A stretch of DNA of 64,000 nucleotides, from assembly GCF_023702125.1 (NCBI RefSeq), contig NZ_CP098415.1, forward strand, positions 2,232,001 through 2,296,000, given 5' to 3'. Both the position numbers and the translations under genes were made by a program. Origin of the DNA: Halorubrum hochsteinianum. Lineage in GTDB: Archaea > Halobacteriota > Halobacteria > Halobacteriales > Haloferacaceae. Below, piece by piece: positions 2,130 to 10,218 of this stretch (positions within the stretch are counted from its first letter, which is position 1; the number at the start of each line of letters is the position of its first letter). The notes beneath the pieces are model-generated. The model saw nothing but the letters and a program-made list of their open reading frames with translations, was not told where the DNA came from and did not search any database.

Positions 2130-2218
2130 TAACGTGTGGTTAGCGTCGGAAACGTAAAACGGTGACTTCCCCGGTCGCCCTCGTCACCCGCCGTCCCGCC
2201 GCCGTCCCGGAACTTCGC

Positions 2219-3018
2219 TCACGGCTCGCCGGCGAGGTCGTCGTACCCGTCGAGCCAGCCGGAGACCGCCTTCTGGAGCGCGCCGGCCGTGCTGCCGAGG
2301 TTGAGGATCCGGTAGCCGTCGGCCGCCTTCGCCGCGGCGTCGTCGGTGTCGAACGCGAGCCCGCCGACCGGCACGCCGGCCTCGACCGCCTTCGAGCGGA
2401 CCGTCTCGACCGCCTCCTCGACCTCGGGGTGGTCGATCTCCCCGGGGTGCCCGAGCGAGACTGACAGGTCGAAGGGACCGATGAACACGAAGCCGAGCTC
2501 CGGTACGTCGAGGATCGCGTCGAGGTTCTCGACGGCGGCCGCGGTCTCGATCGTCGTCCCGACCATCGTCTCGGCGTCCTCGGTCGCCACGTAGTCGTCG
2601 GCCAGCCCCCAGCGCCGCGCTCGCGGCGCGGCGAGGCCGCGGTCGCCGGGGCCGTCGTCGTACCGGAACCGGGCGGAGGCGACCGCCTCCCGGACCTCGG
2701 CCGCGTCCTCCACGCGCGGGAGGAACACGTTCCTGACGCCCAGATCGAGCGCTTTCCGCACGAGCGCGGGGTCGGAGTCCGGGAGCCTCACGAGGAGTTC
2801 GACGCCCGTCCGCTCGGCGGCCCGGAGCAGGTTCTCGACCGTCCCCGCGTCCCACGGGTCCGGCCCGCCGTGTTCGAAGTCGAGCCAGACGAAGTCGACG
2901 CCGAGCTCGCCGTACAGCTCCACGAGCGTCGGGCTGTACGCGTTGTCGAGCACGCCGAGCGCGACCCCGTCGTCCGCCAGCGTCGCCGCGACCCCGTCGT
3001 CCGCGAGTGGTCTGCCAT
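2219..3018 (-). CDS. HpcH/HpaI-family aldolase, probable frameshift at codon 4
   Basis: A class II pyruvate-type aldolase/citrate-lyase-beta-like protein of about 265 residues. The frame shows ALGVLDNAYSPTLVELYGELGVDFVWLDFEHGG, then TTIET (metal-binding Glu) and FVFIGPFDLSVSLG (metal-binding Asp), all characteristic of the HpaI/HpcH fold. Its function would be reversible aldol cleavage of a 2-keto-3-deoxy acid releasing pyruvate, or a related reaction. The C-terminus (stop at 2219) is clear, but no ATG, GTG or TTG exists in the coding frame near the N-terminus. The expected ATG at 3016-3018 (MAD...) is one frame off, and adding one base at about 3008 would give MAD-x-LADDGVAAT. The N-terminus also contains a perfect 18-bp direct repeat (2960-2977 and 2987-3004), giving a 9-residue duplication. 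Either a sequencing indel or a real lesion; if real, the gene is damaged. Confidence 0.72.
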
Positions 3019-3075
3019 GTCGCCTCGCCGTTCGGTCCCCGCGGGCATACCCTTGTGGGGGGCTGGACGGTGGGG

Positions 3076-3180
3076 GAGGCGGAAGGGGCGGCGACGGGGG
3101 AGGCGGAGGGGGCGGCGACGAGAGAGGCGGAAGTGGCGGCGACGGGAGAGGCGGAAGTGGCGGCGACGGGAGAGGCGGCG
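3076..3180. repeat. 24-bp G-rich tandem repeat, about 4.4 units
   Basis: Between the divergent aldolase and gpmI genes a 24-bp unit is repeated head to tail: units at 3076-3099, 3100-3123, 3124-3147, 3148-3171 and a partial one after 3172. Units 3 and 4 are identical (start GAGGCGGAAGTGG); units 1 and 2 differ at a few positions. The plus strand is strongly purine-rich with several runs of three to five G, so it could form G-quadruplex or triplex structures. In one minus-strand frame it would encode a Pro/Ser/Leu-rich tract, which I do not regard as translated. Confidence 0.85.
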
Positions 3181-6801: not shown

Positions 6802-7728
6802 CTATCCGTCGCCGTGCGTGTAGCCGCGGTCGGGCAACGGCTCGTCGTCGGCCGTGACGCGCGCTTCGACCTCGCTCCCACTTTCCTCGACCACCGTCCC
6901 GATCCGCGTCAGGCCGGCCGGACACGCCTCTCGAACCGCGTCCACCTCGGGCTCCGGAACCGCACACAGCAGTTCGAAGTCCTCGCCGAAGTGCGCCGCC
7001 AGCTCGAACCGCTCCGCCGAGTCCTCGGCCACCTCCTCGACCGCGGGGTGGACCGGGACCGCCCCCCGGTCCAGTTCGATCCCGACGCCGCTCGCCTCGG
7101 CCAACTGGTGACACGACCGGGCGAGCCCGTCCGAGGAGTCCATCATCGCGGTCGCGGACCCCGCGAGCGCCAGCCCGTCGGCCACGCGCGGCGTGAACCG
7201 GAACAGCTCGTTGGCGCGCTCGACCGCCTCGTCGTCGTCCGTCGCGTTCCCGCGTTCGAACAGCCGCAGCGCCGCGGCGGATCGGCCCCACTCGCCGGTG
7301 ACGCAGAGCGCGTCGCCGGGGGCAGCGCCGTCGCGGGTGACGCTGCCGTCCTCAGTCACGTCCCCGATCGCGGTGGTCGCGGTCGTGAACTCCACGTGTT
7401 CGTCGAGGTCGCCGCCGACGTACTCGGCGTCGACCGCCTCGCAGACGTCGACCGCGCCGGCGACGAACCGCTCCAGCTCCTCGCGGTCGAACGCCTCGTC
7501 GGCGTAGACGGCGACGGCGGCGCTCGCCGCGGCCCCCGTCGCGGCCACGTCCGACAGCGACGCGCCGACCGCGCGCCAGCCCGCGGTGTACCGCGTCGTC
7601 CCCGGCGGGAAGTCGGTCCGCTCGTGGAGCATGTCCGTCGTGATGACCGTCCCGTCGACGACCGCGGCGTCGTCGCCCGCGTGCGGGAGGTCGGCCGCCA
7701 GCGCCCGGAGGGCGTCGCGCTCGTTCAC
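6802..7728 (-). CDS. thiL: Thiamine-monophosphate kinase
   Basis: A 308-residue cytoplasmic kinase that phosphorylates thiamine monophosphate to thiamine pyrophosphate, the last step of cofactor synthesis. The PurM/AIRS-like fold is visible: GDDAAVVDGTVITTDMLHERTDF near the N-terminus (Mg/ATP binding), WRAVGASLSDVAATGA, a GGD at about 115, MDSSDGLARS (substrate and ATP-binding) and HFGEDFELLCAV close to the C-terminus. The GTG start (NERDALRALAADLPHAGDD) fits the family's N-terminus, and a TATA-like CTTATTGG on the minus strand at 7757-7764 lies about 30 bases before it. The longer frame would need a TTG start inside the promoter. It is convergent with the small membrane protein gene. Confidence 0.93.
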   Translation of the reverse strand: MNERDALRALAADLPHAGDDAAVVDGTVITTDMLHERTDFPPGTTRYTAGWRAVGASLSDVAATGAAASAAVAVYADEAFDREELERFVAGAVDVCEAVDAEYVGGDLDEHVEFTTATTAIGDVTEDGSVTRDGAAPGDALCVTGEWGRSAAALRLFERGNATDDDEAVERANELFRFTPRVADGLALAGSATAMMDSSDGLARSCHQLAEASGVGIELDRGAVPVHPAVEEVAEDSAERFELAAHFGEDFELLCAVPEPEVDAVREACPAGLTRIGTVVEESGSEVEARVTADDEPLPDRGYTHGDG

Positions 7729-7870
7729 TGTTCCACGCTCCGCGCGTGGGGCCAATAAGCGATCGGTCCCGGGCTACCCTCGCCGCGGTGATCGAGACCG
7801 ACGGTCACGCCGAACCTCGCGCTGCCGTGCTGCGTGTTGTCATGGAACATTTAATCGAGTAAAACAACAT

Positions 7871-7932
7871 AATGAATATTATCATTATCAATCATTATGT
7901 TTATTACTATCCTCCGAATCGTACCAGTCGCA
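7871..7932 (+). promoter_or_regulatory. AT-rich promoter and palindromic site ahead of the aceA leader ORFs
   Basis: A strikingly AT-rich stretch (7840-7915) in GC-rich surroundings. A TATA-like TTTATTA at 7900-7906 lies about 30 bases before the ATG at 7933, which is ideal for a leaderless haloarchaeal transcript. Upstream, AATGA (7871-7875) and TCATT (7882-7886) form an interrupted palindrome, and ATCATTAT occurs twice (from 7881 and from 7891). These are operator candidates for carbon-source control of isocitrate lyase, by position only. Confidence 0.6.
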
Positions 7933-8037
7933 ATGGCAGTATCCGCATCCGTACGCGACCACGCAGAGGCCCGACGCACAGACCGTACCACCGAACGACC
8001 GCCGCAGCCGCCCACACGACCCGATGACGACACCTAA
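7933..8037 (+). CDS. 34-residue leader ORF 1 upstream of aceA
   Basis: A short ORF (MAVSASVRDHAEARRT...) whose ATG sits at the expected transcription start of the AT-rich promoter, so it would be translated from a leaderless mRNA. The peptide is Arg/Thr/Pro-rich with no hydrophobic segment. Its stop lies 13 bases inside the next ORF, which is in a different frame. It belongs to no family I know. It could be a leader peptide controlling downstream translation, or spurious. Confidence 0.35.
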   Translation: MAVSASVRDHAEARRTDRTTERPPQPPTRPDDDT

Positions 8038-8401
8038 CGACACGCCCGACGACGCGACCCGACGCACCGACGACACGACCACCCGATCGACGGACTCGAC
8101 GACGACTACCACGACCGACGCCGCCACCGCGACCGATCCCACCACTTCTCCGCGGACGGTCCCCGGCCGCACCCCGCTGACCGAAGAGGCGGGCGCGCCG
8201 CTGGTCCCGACGATCACAACCCGCCGAGCGACGACCGCGCGGTCGTCCGGCTCGCCGACGGGGACCGACGGCGAACGCGACGCGACGCGGACCGAGACCC
8301 GCACGTCCACCCGCCCGCCGACCGACGGCGAACGCGACGCGCCGCTCGTCCCCGACCTGCGCCCCGCCTCGCGGACGCGGACGGACGGGGGCTCGCGATG
8401 A
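8024..8401 (+). CDS. Thr-rich low-complexity ORF 2 upstream of aceA
   Basis: A 125-residue ORF dominated by Thr, Asp, Arg and Pro, including six consecutive Thr near residue 26. It carries an internal near-duplication: TDGERDA occurs twice and APLVP occurs twice. Nearly every codon ends in G or C, as in genuine genes here, which argues weakly for coding. It starts inside ORF 1 and ends by an ATGA overlap with ORF 3. It would be disordered. The composition could equally reflect GC-rich filler, so the call is tentative. Confidence 0.35.
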   Translation: MTTPNDTPDDATRRTDDTTTRSTDSTTTTTTDAATATDPTTSPRTVPGRTPLTEEAGAPLVPTITTRRATTARSSGSPTGTDGERDATRTETRTSTRPPTDGERDAPLVPDLRPASRTRTDGGSR

Positions 8402-8610
8402 GCGCCGACCCCGTCCGCGACCGGACGCGAGCGACCCGCTCGACTCCGGGGCCGATCCCGATGACGGGGACCGGCGACGGCCCCCGGCCTGACCCCACGA
8501 CACTCGCGCTCGCGACCCGGTCTGATGACGAGGGACGCACTACGACGCGGACCGACGACACTCGCCGCCTGCCGACGAACCGACCCGGCGACCACGCCAC
8601 CACGCAGTAA
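8398..8610 (+). CDS. Low-complexity ORF 3 immediately upstream of aceA
   Basis: A 70-residue Thr/Arg/Asp/Pro-rich ORF that begins with an ATGA overlap on ORF 2 and ends four bases before the aceA start codon. These spacings are typical of translational coupling in haloarchaeal operons. No domain or membrane segment is visible and no family is recognised. If ORFs 1-3 are not translated, the stretch is a 680-base 5-prime leader of aceA. Confidence 0.3.
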
Positions 8611-8614
8611 TCCG

Positions 8615-9655
8615 ATGAACCCCAACGAACTCGACGACGACGTCTTCGACAGAGATATCGACAACCCGGCCGGCCGAAAGCTCCGCGAGCTGTTCGAGGA
8701 GCAGGACTACACGTTCGCGCCCGGGATATACCACGCCCTCGACGCCCGCCTCGCGGAGATGGCGGGCCTGGACGCGGCCTACATGAGCGGCTACTCCACC
8801 GTCCTCGGCCAGTTCGGCTTCCCCGACCTGGAGATGGTCACGATGACCGAGATGGTCGAGAACGCCAAGCGCATGGTCGAGGCGACGAACCTCCCCGTCA
8901 TCGCCGACTGCGACACCGGCTACGGCGGGATCCACAACGTCCGGCGCGCGGTCCGCGAGTACGAGAAGGCCGGCGTCGCCGCCGTCCACATCGAGGACCA
9001 GACCTCGCCGAAGCGCTGCGGCCACATCGCCGGCAAGCAGATCGTCTCCCGCGAACAGGCCCGGTCGCGCTTCGAGGCCGCGGTCGACGCCAAGCAGAGC
9101 GAGGACACCGTCATCATCGCCCGCACCGACGCCTACGGCTCCGCCAACGGCGACTGGGAGGAGCACCTCGAACGCGGGCGGATCTACGCCGACGCCGGCG
9201 TCGACCTCGTCTGGCCGGAGATGCCCGACCCGTCGCGCGAGGACGCGGTCGAGTACGCCGAGACGATCCACGAGACCCACCCCGACCTGGACCTCGCCTT
9301 CAACTACTCCTCGTCGTTCGAGTGGGGCGCGGAGGAGGACCCGCTCACCTTCGAGGAGCTGGGCGACCTGGGCTACCAGTACATCTTCATCACGCTGTAC
9401 GGGCTCCACTCGGGCGCGCACGCCGTCTACGAGGACCTCTCGAACATCGCCGAGAACGACGAGCAGGCGCAGTTCGACCTCGAAGAGCGCTACATCGGCC
9501 ACGAGACGGAGAGCCACCACGAACTCTCCTTCGTCCCGCGGTATCAGGACATCGAGGCCGAGTTCGACCCCGAGGCGCGCAAGCGACAGGAGGAGTCCGC
9601 CGGCTTCACCGAAGACGAGAGCGACCCGATCACGGCCTCCGAGGACGACGACTGA
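8615..9655 (+). CDS. aceA: Isocitrate lyase
   Basis: A 346-residue enzyme of the isocitrate lyase/PEP mutase superfamily that splits isocitrate into glyoxylate and succinate, allowing growth on acetate or fatty acids via the glyoxylate bypass. It shows [55 protein letters not shown] (catalytic Cys135) and NYSSSFEW. The KRCGH motif identifies isocitrate lyase rather than PEP mutase or methylisocitrate lyase. The C-terminal 30 residues are acidic and probably disordered. The ATG is chosen because [26 protein letters not shown] is family-like and the extension is low complexity. Malate synthase is not adjacent. Expression is probably driven from the promoter near 7903. Confidence 0.93.
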
Positions 9656-9698
9656 GACGTACACTTGGGGGCACGACCCGTCTCCCGCGCCGATCCAT

Positions 9699-9719
9699 CT
9701 TTTTGACAAACAAGTTTTT
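9699..9719 (+). terminator. T-rich terminator after aceA
   Basis: Two T5 runs (about 9700-9704 and 9715-9719) follow the aceA stop by 45-65 bases in otherwise GC-rich DNA, matching archaeal intrinsic termination. The second run overlaps the TATA region of the next gene. Confidence 0.5.
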
Positions 9720-9732
9720 AATTAGTTACTAA
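9713..9732 (+). promoter_or_regulatory. Promoter with palindrome TTAGTTACTAA
   Basis: The T-rich TTTTTAATTAG centred near 9717 lies about 28 bases before the ATG at 9745, fitting a leaderless promoter. TTAGT (9722-9726) and ACTAA (9728-9732) are perfect inverted copies around one T, directly downstream of the TATA position, where a repressor could sit. Confidence 0.5.
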
Positions 9733-9744
9733 TATGCCAAATAT

Positions 9745-10218
9745 ATGGAATACGACGGAGCTGTCGGAAGATATATTCAGACGCTTGCGGGTCGGCTCAG
9801 CGAGTTCGAACGAACGTCGACGACGGTGAACGACCAGCGGGTGACGGTATTTCACGATCGCTCGCTTGAGATATCCAAGTTCGGGCTCGTCGATACCGTG
9901 TTCGTGGTCGGCACCGCGGACACGCCCGCTGAAGCAGCGTCGTTCAGTAAGGCTGCTTTCGAGTACGGACTCTCCGTGAAATCGAAATTCCCGCGGGGGT
10001 TGGGCGGCAACCTTGTCGTCTATCCGGTCGTGGTCACCGACACCGATCTGACCGAGTGGATCTCGGAGTACGCCCCTAAACACTGGTCAGCTTTCGAATT
10101 TCCTGTCGTCGTCTATCCTAGCGAGGGTACTGTCGATTATCAGCACTCGACGCCAATGTGGGGCCGCATTTATTATAAAGGCTTCAGAGAGACAGCCAAC
10201 ACAACGCTACATCCGTAG
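9745..10218 (+). CDS. Hypothetical protein in an AT-richer island
   Basis: A 157-residue soluble protein (MEYDGAVGRYIQTLAGRLSEFERTST...) with alternating beta-like segments (VTVFHD, VDTVFVVGTAD, NLVVYPVVVTD, FPVVVYP) suggesting a small alpha/beta domain. It has no signal peptide, membrane helix or recognisable catalytic motif. It is less acidic, lower in GC and looser in codon third positions than its neighbours, which points to recent transfer. It ends in a 1-kb stretch that also holds a decayed HAD gene. I cannot assign a function. Confidence 0.7.
   Translation: MEYDGAVGRYIQTLAGRLSEFERTSTTVNDQRVTVFHDRSLEISKFGLVDTVFVVGTADTPAEAASFSKAAFEYGLSVKSKFPRGLGGNLVVYPVVVTDTDLTEWISEYAPKHWSAFEFPVVVYPSEGTVDYQHSTPMWGRIYYKGFRETANTTLHP

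Follow-up and report, generated by a model that had tools for sequence, protein, structure and literature searches.

Conserved chain of short overlapping reading frames ahead of aceA in Halorubrum, and a candidate small-protein partner for haloarchaeal isocitrate lyase

In the aceBAK operon of E. coli, isocitrate lyase is encoded together with AceK, a kinase/phosphatase that acts on isocitrate dehydrogenase. Small proteins that bind metabolic enzymes include CP12 and the cyanobacterial GS inactivating factors. In amino-acid attenuators the mRNA of a metabolic gene has a short ORF close to its 5' end. A report on Methanosarcina mazei describes the small protein sP26 and its pairing with glutamine synthetase (PMC11957540). 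For Haloferax volcanii, two reports describe gene pairs linked by termination-reinitiation (PMC10666635, PMC6728339); according to the former, coupling requires that the genes overlap or lie a very short distance apart, ∼20 nt nearly abolishing it, and subunits of complexes are over-represented among overlapping pairs (PMC10666635). Leaderless transcripts, in which 0–5 nt precede the start codon, make up 72% of the protein-coding ones in the same organism (PMC4983044).

The window analysed here is a stretch of 64,000 nucleotides from Halorubrum hochsteinianum (contig NZ_CP098415.1). Within it, aceA (8615–9655, + strand), encoding a 346-residue isocitrate lyase of haloarchaeal type, is preceded by three short ORFs on the same strand. 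ORF1 (7933–8037) encodes 34 residues with a Pro-rich C-terminus (RPPQPPTRPDDDT) and is the probable leaderless first cistron; ORF2 (8024–8401) encodes 125 residues, is rich in Thr, Arg, Pro and Asp, and carries two APLVP motifs (GAPLVP and ERDAPLVPDLRP); ORF3 (8398–8610) encodes 70 residues and has its own Pro-containing motif in Halorubrum. An earlier note on this DNA had described three overlapping ORFs at this place, and they are present, joined as it said by ATGA between ORF2 and ORF3 and ending four bases (8611–8614) before aceA, although ORF1 and ORF2 share 14 nt rather than the 13 that it gave. A TATA-box-like TTTATT (7900–7905, + strand) stands 33 nt 5' of the ORF1 ATG, with the AT-rich element ATGAATATTATCATTATCAATCATTATG (7872–7899, + strand) directly 5' of it. 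Divergent from the chain is a thiL-like gene (6802–7755, − strand), which from its sequence looks like thiL and which marks the locus in Halorubrum.

The chain resembles the H. volcanii pairs in that its cistrons are co-directed and joined by ATGA overlaps or separated by a few bases, in the same archaeal class; every junction (−14, −4 and +4 nt) is an overlap or a very short gap, the geometry of termination-reinitiation. It differs from those pairs in that a single enzyme follows a row of three very short cistrons, that the first overlap is of 14 nt, and that the coupling is here a prediction from geometry. As in leaderless haloarchaeal transcripts (PMC4983044), its TATA-like box keeps a constant short spacing to the first start codon, but that codon opens a 34-codon ORF and not the enzyme. 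The proposed action, a small protein on a central enzyme, is that of sP26, yet in contrast to sP26, CP12 and the GS inactivating factors, ORF2 lies in the enzyme's own operon in an overlapping or abutting position, matches no family and no solved structure, and has a putative partner. Attenuator leader peptides are similar in being encoded by a short 5' ORF before a metabolic gene, but here we found no terminator or alternative hairpins, there is more than one ORF, and the conserved residues form a motif rather than a run of a single codon. As with aceK, a control function would be encoded alongside isocitrate lyase if our proposal for ORF2 is correct, but unlike AceK the ORF2 product is a small, predicted disordered protein without an enzyme domain. 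We found no description of these ORFs in the open-access literature; the paper by Serrano and Bonete (2001) that first reported the ace operon of H. volcanii lies outside this search and might mention an upstream ORF. Leaderless cistrons, coupling and small proteins acting on enzymes are known kinds; a conserved chain of them before isocitrate lyase, bearing a motif family of its own, is new as a variant within this search.

Forty of 52 Halorubrum genomes have aceA, and the three-ORF chain, that of the window included, precedes it in 39 of these 40 loci. In 38 of the 40 the leader is preceded by a gene similar to the thiL-like neighbour, and the most AT-rich stretch is found ∼500–725 nt 5' of aceA in 39, which bears out the single far-upstream promoter that the earlier note had proposed. 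ORF1 is found in all 39 loci that bear ORF2, overlapping it by 14 nt in 38 (53 nt in L038), and ORF2 meets ORF3 by ATGA in 38 (GTGA in L031); junctions fall between −15 and +6 nt in 37 of the 39, in agreement with the coupling suggested earlier. The length of ORF2 ranges from 93 to 133 residues with the frame always open, and in two loci (L003 and L016) ORF3 is split and its pieces are rejoined by ATGA. Disrupted frames in relatives, which the earlier note named as counting against its proposal, are absent, and the chain is conserved. In the lone Halorubrum locus without it (L039, genome G029) the lyase is 82% identical, there are no ORFs, and an AT-rich promoter lies ∼90 nt 5' of aceA. A public scan with ORF2 returned 31 loci, 29 of them from Halorubrum, one from Haloquadratum walsbyi J07HQW2 and one from Halobellus rarus; a search of phages with ORF2 gave no match. 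Locus L013 carries a duplicated aceA start upstream of the gene together with an undetermined residue, for which faulty assembly is the probable cause.

Taken singly, the sequence of the window is modest evidence for such a chain, since 3.5% of 200 dinucleotide shuffles of its leader also ran unbroken from the fixed first ATG to aceA. Across Halorubrum, an unbroken ATG-to-aceA chain occurs in 37 of 39 loci against a shuffle mean of 5.5%, a comparison in which the loci are related, so that the trials are not independent. The other two are chained as well if a GTG start (L031) or the 53-nt overlap (L038) is accepted.

TTTATT lies exactly 33 nt 5' of the ORF1 ATG in 38 of the 39 Halorubrum loci, with the intervening bases varying (L020 has TTTAAT), and in Haladaptatus a TATA-like box, counted by eye, is also 33 nt before the first ORF. 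This constant spacing points to a leaderless ORF1, which, given the leaderless majority in H. volcanii, is also its simplest reading; we regard ORF1 as probably the leaderless first cistron, with the transcription start placed by the TATA spacing. Of the 78 chain-positive loci, 62 have the AT-rich element TATTANCATTAN, as do 11 of the 21 chain-negative ones; in 42 of those 62 it lies 56 nt 5' of the first ATG. The distance from promoter element to aceA is 304–753 nt in the chain-positive loci (62 of 78) and 57–327 nt in the chain-negative ones (11 of 21). Perhaps the conserved AT-rich element 5' of aceA is a regulator site. The element GAATATTATCATTATNNATCAT, at 7872–7899 of the window, is common to chain-positive and chain-negative aceA loci across families.

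Selection on the ORFs was assessed by median pairwise dN/dS (Nei-Gojobori) in frame and in the other two frames, excluding L013, L031 and L038 from the tests of ORF1 and ORF3, L003 and L016 from that of ORF3, L038 from that of ORF2, and L040 from that of aceA. ORF2 gave 0.461 in frame against 1.255 and 2.175 out of frame (38 sequences), and ORF3 gave 0.602 against 1.056 and 1.622 (34 sequences). Both therefore show the frame-specific purifying selection of a small protein-coding gene, which is weaker in ORF1 (0.685 against 0.889 and 1.206; 36 sequences); the value for aceA is 0.118 (38 sequences). Synonymous sites of ORF1 are conserved too, with pS 0.175 as against 0.382 in ORF2. The earlier description of third positions as almost all G or C holds for ORF2 (genus average 0.84) and ORF3 (0.885) and fails for ORF1, where only 60% are.

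Invariant in 32 ORF2 sequences are APxVP, ERxAPxVPDxR, one isolated Pro and the start Met, and the bulk of both ORF2 and ORF3 is variable, low-complexity sequence. None of the three ORFs is covered by a Pfam or NCBIfam family. AlphaFold2, run on the 32-sequence alignment of ORF2, predicted no fold (pTM 0.17, one 4-residue helix), so that the product appears small and mostly disordered, with a short conserved motif; we read it as a small, putatively intrinsically disordered protein in which selection has kept a short linear motif, xAPLVPxL, present as a rule once or twice. The coding status and coupled geometry of the chain are well supported at the level of sequence comparison. Given protein-level selection on ORF2 and ORF3 and a motif in ORF2 that is conserved across haloarchaeal families, a small-protein operon describes the region better than the mere leader for which the ORFs had been taken; control of aceA by the upstream ORFs is something we infer.

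Beyond Halorubrum, we sampled 59 loci, the class as a whole having aceA in 103 of 242 genomes: 57 come from the 80 non-genus genomes with aceA, and two (G155 and G161) were chosen for matching the ORF2 profile and are hence biased. In 38 of the 59 (37 of 57 without the two chosen genomes), a short ORF that carries an xPxVP-type motif terminates between −60 and +40 of the aceA start. By family, the counts are 28 of 30 in f1, 5 of 6 in f2, 2 of 2 in f4, 1 of 4 in f8, 2 of 2 in f9, 0 of 13 in f3, and 0 of 1 in each of f10 and f11; one further motif ORF, in L075 (G155), ends 232 nt before aceA and is outside the 38 counted. None of 241 control ORFs on the reverse strand of the same stretches has the motif, and on this test the open reverse-strand frames were rejected. 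The motif stands in varying contexts around a constant core (ERDAPLVPDL, ETDAPLVPDLG, EENMDAPLVPFI, AQEAPLVPDLG, DIENTGAPAVPDL, DTDNTGVPIVPQL), and occurs in two copies in several genera. In 24 of the 38 loci the motif ORF overlaps aceA by 1 or 4 nt, and an upstream ORF overlaps or abuts the motif ORF in 33 of 39. In genera g5 and g16 the upstream ORF so picked is an extra, intermediate one (MTFxPNPxTD...), which in most cases is itself preceded by another short ORF.

The arrangement can be read on the Haladaptatus caseinilyticus plasmid NZ_CP111040.1, where a promoter is followed by a 29-aa ORF, ATGA, a 62-aa ORF (EEEAPIVPIV), ATGA, aceA and aceB; the 62-aa motif ORF is annotated as a 'hypothetical protein' (WP_266080981.1) and the 29-aa ORF is unannotated. 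The APLVP motif by itself is not diagnostic, since a DNA pattern for it has three matches in the window's genome, of which one is ORF2. A match of the loose motif expression to TPTTP, in a Thr-rich frame of L183, was judged false. In L081–L086 and L090, a conserved ORF of 29–42 aa, MTFxPNPxTDxDxIDxRELSLF-like, lies ∼165–310 nt before aceA, directly 5' of the motif ORF and with 4-nt overlaps.

Presence of the motif ORF requires 5 changes on a tree of 66 lyases, against a mean of 18.0 when shuffled (none of 500 as low), the tree being a quick build with 7 of the 40 genus loci, 22 weakly supported forks and a midpoint root. The motif ORF occurs on either side of that root, which fits an ancestral origin followed by losses, and the arrangement appears from its distribution to be ancestral in this way. 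ORF2 is absent from all 7 aceA-less Halorubrum genomes in the family sample. At the thiL neighbourhood of the 12 aceA-less Halorubrum genomes, 10 have no trace of the chain and in one (L172) the contig ends inside it. A relic remains beside thiL in L179 (G003), comprising the promoter, ORF1 and a fused ORF2–ORF3 remnant that keeps the ORF3 motif, with aceA and the APLVP motifs gone. Isocitrate lyase without the chain is found in 21 of 99 loci, including all 13 of family f3, and any partner encoded by the chain must therefore be dispensable.

Our preferred reading, to which we lean by a modest amount, is that the products of the ORFs would be small and disordered and would be made together with isocitrate lyase through termination-reinitiation, the ORF2 product being a candidate partner of the lyase. 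The region would then be the 5' part of the aceA operon rather than an untranslated leader. Transcription would begin at, or a few bases from, the ATG of ORF1, judging by the TATA spacing; ribosomes would load on the leaderless ORF1 and pass from there to ORF2, ORF3 and aceA by termination-reinitiation across the 14- and 4-nt overlaps and the 4-nt gap. The ORF2 product might dock on the lyase co-translationally through its motif, and as a dedicated partner could tune the activity, stability or assembly of the enzyme. Such a partner is the most likely role for the motif protein because, from family to family, it is present with the lyase, is lost with it and keeps its place beside it; we propose binding on the strength of this shared fate, the conservation of the motif and the facts of coupling in H. 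volcanii. Against binding speak the lyases of the 21 chain-negative loci and the growth of H. volcanii on acetate with aceA in trans, and selection on ORF1 is weak. No fusion of motif and lyase occurs among 98 lyase sequences. A comparison of 43 chain-positive with 21 chain-negative lyases for a docking surface gave none that was clear, only N-terminal and scattered differences that may simply follow the tree. A wider proposal, which we put forward tentatively and are rather more inclined to doubt than to accept, is that most haloarchaeal isocitrate lyases may have a dedicated, multivalent disordered partner, made by coupled synthesis just ahead of the enzyme and docking through APLVP; in the glyoxylate shunt it would be a candidate subunit for control or scaffolding, one that goes back to the ancestor of the class and was lost several times.

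The family itself is an unnamed one of small proteins, outside the Pfam and NCBIfam models, that in several haloarchaeal families goes with an enzyme of central metabolism. Should the ORF2 product bind isocitrate lyase, this would be a new archaeal control of the point where carbon assimilation branches from the citric acid cycle, and, if true, the arrangement would offer a clean natural example of co-translational pairing through leaderless and overlapping cistrons. The pairing of small protein and lyase is directly testable in Haloferax and Halorubrum.

Some of these observations would also suit a translational relay, in which the ORFs only pass on to aceA the ribosomes that load at the leaderless 5' end and fix how strongly it is expressed, the content of the peptides being irrelevant. 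The junctions are kept better than most residues, the split ORF3 being joined again by ATGA, and most of the ORF2 and ORF3 sequence is variable and of low complexity. We nevertheless consider a relay alone unlikely: APxVP and ERxAPxVPDxR are invariant in ORF2, the same motif recurs in distant families whose ORFs otherwise differ, and for ORF2 and ORF3 dN/dS falls below 1 solely in the frame that codes. It also leaves a chain of ∼680 nt unexplained, as chain-negative loci place the promoter nearer aceA. If the peptides do matter, they might instead act in trans on another target (a glyoxylate-handling enzyme, a transporter or a regulator) and be merely co-expressed with aceA, and other enzymes do share the operon in some genomes, namely aceB in Haladaptatus and a CitE-like lyase at 14 of the 40 Halorubrum loci. 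Isocitrate lyase is however the constant element; the motif ORF abuts aceA whatever gene comes next, and has been lost together with aceA, which makes another target, in our judgement, quite unlikely.

A role for ORF1 as a regulatory leader peptide, with pausing at its Pro-rich end controlling flow into ORF2 and aceA, would be compatible with a lyase partner encoded by ORF2, and the endings of ORF1 (RPPQPPTRP-type in Halorubrum; PPTPPT, PPTPPERPTP or PTRPPNPPT elsewhere) invite it. We think it improbable, as Pro is frequent in GC-rich low-complexity ORFs (18% in ORF1) and the PP pair is missing in L075, L095 and L098. Furthermore, scans for bacterial-type promoters and terminators were empty, the terminator scan over 7000–9200, which says little on an archaeal promoter, and folding of the leader RNA is not above that of shuffles (z = +0.63); with neither a terminator-like hairpin nor excess structure, a classical attenuator is disfavoured. 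The same folding result bears on a structured 5' UTR or riboswitch containing fortuitous ORFs, for which the length of the leader and the conservation of its promoter could be cited. Rfam gave no match up to E = 1 within 7500–9800, and riboswitch and attenuator alike were rejected for want of an Rfam match, excess folding or a terminator. The ORFs, moreover, stay open despite changes in length and are under selection in their reading frame, so that we give a structured UTR hardly any credence. That the ORFs arose by chance in GC-rich DNA is rejected on conservation and frame-specific selection, though the window alone, with its chained shuffles, would be insufficient for this.

The lyase that the putative partner would bind exceeds the cut-offs of two Pfam models, ICL (108 bits) and PEP_mutase (123 bits), and falls below cut-off in the NCBIfam models for both isocitrate lyase and methylisocitrate lyase. 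It is 81% identical to the annotated Haladaptatus aceA product and carries the motif KRCGH, where classical isocitrate lyases have KKCGH. Among solved structures it matches both methylisocitrate lyase-type and isocitrate lyase entries; the predicted model, built with 18 close sequences, is poor (mean pLDDT 57.3). PrpD occurs in 2 of 9 Halorubrum genomes tested. The importance of aceA for growth on acetate, assumed in the earlier note, holds for H. volcanii, where aceA supplied in trans restores such growth (PMC7746861); the cis arrangement is thus not essential in that species, if the chain exists there. For Halorubrum the matter is less clear, since AceB, the malate synthase of haloarchaea, was found in no more than 2 of 52 genomes and is absent from 50.

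The general malate synthase barrel was likewise found in none of the 9 Halorubrum genomes tested, and a CitE/malyl-CoA-lyase-like gene lies directly 3' of aceA in 14 of the 40 Halorubrum loci (for example L195, and L196 at 2201–3121); the window's genome has a 64% relative elsewhere (L198). From these gene contents, Halorubrum may use glyoxylate through a malyl-CoA lyase-type enzyme, a possible route that we offer as a lead rather than a result. After aceA in the window is a 157-aa ORF (9745–10218, + strand) with its own AT-rich upstream region and without a Pfam family over cut-off. Also within the window, 2276–2938 (− strand) matches the HpcH/HpaI (malyl-CoA lyase) family with 105.7 bits.
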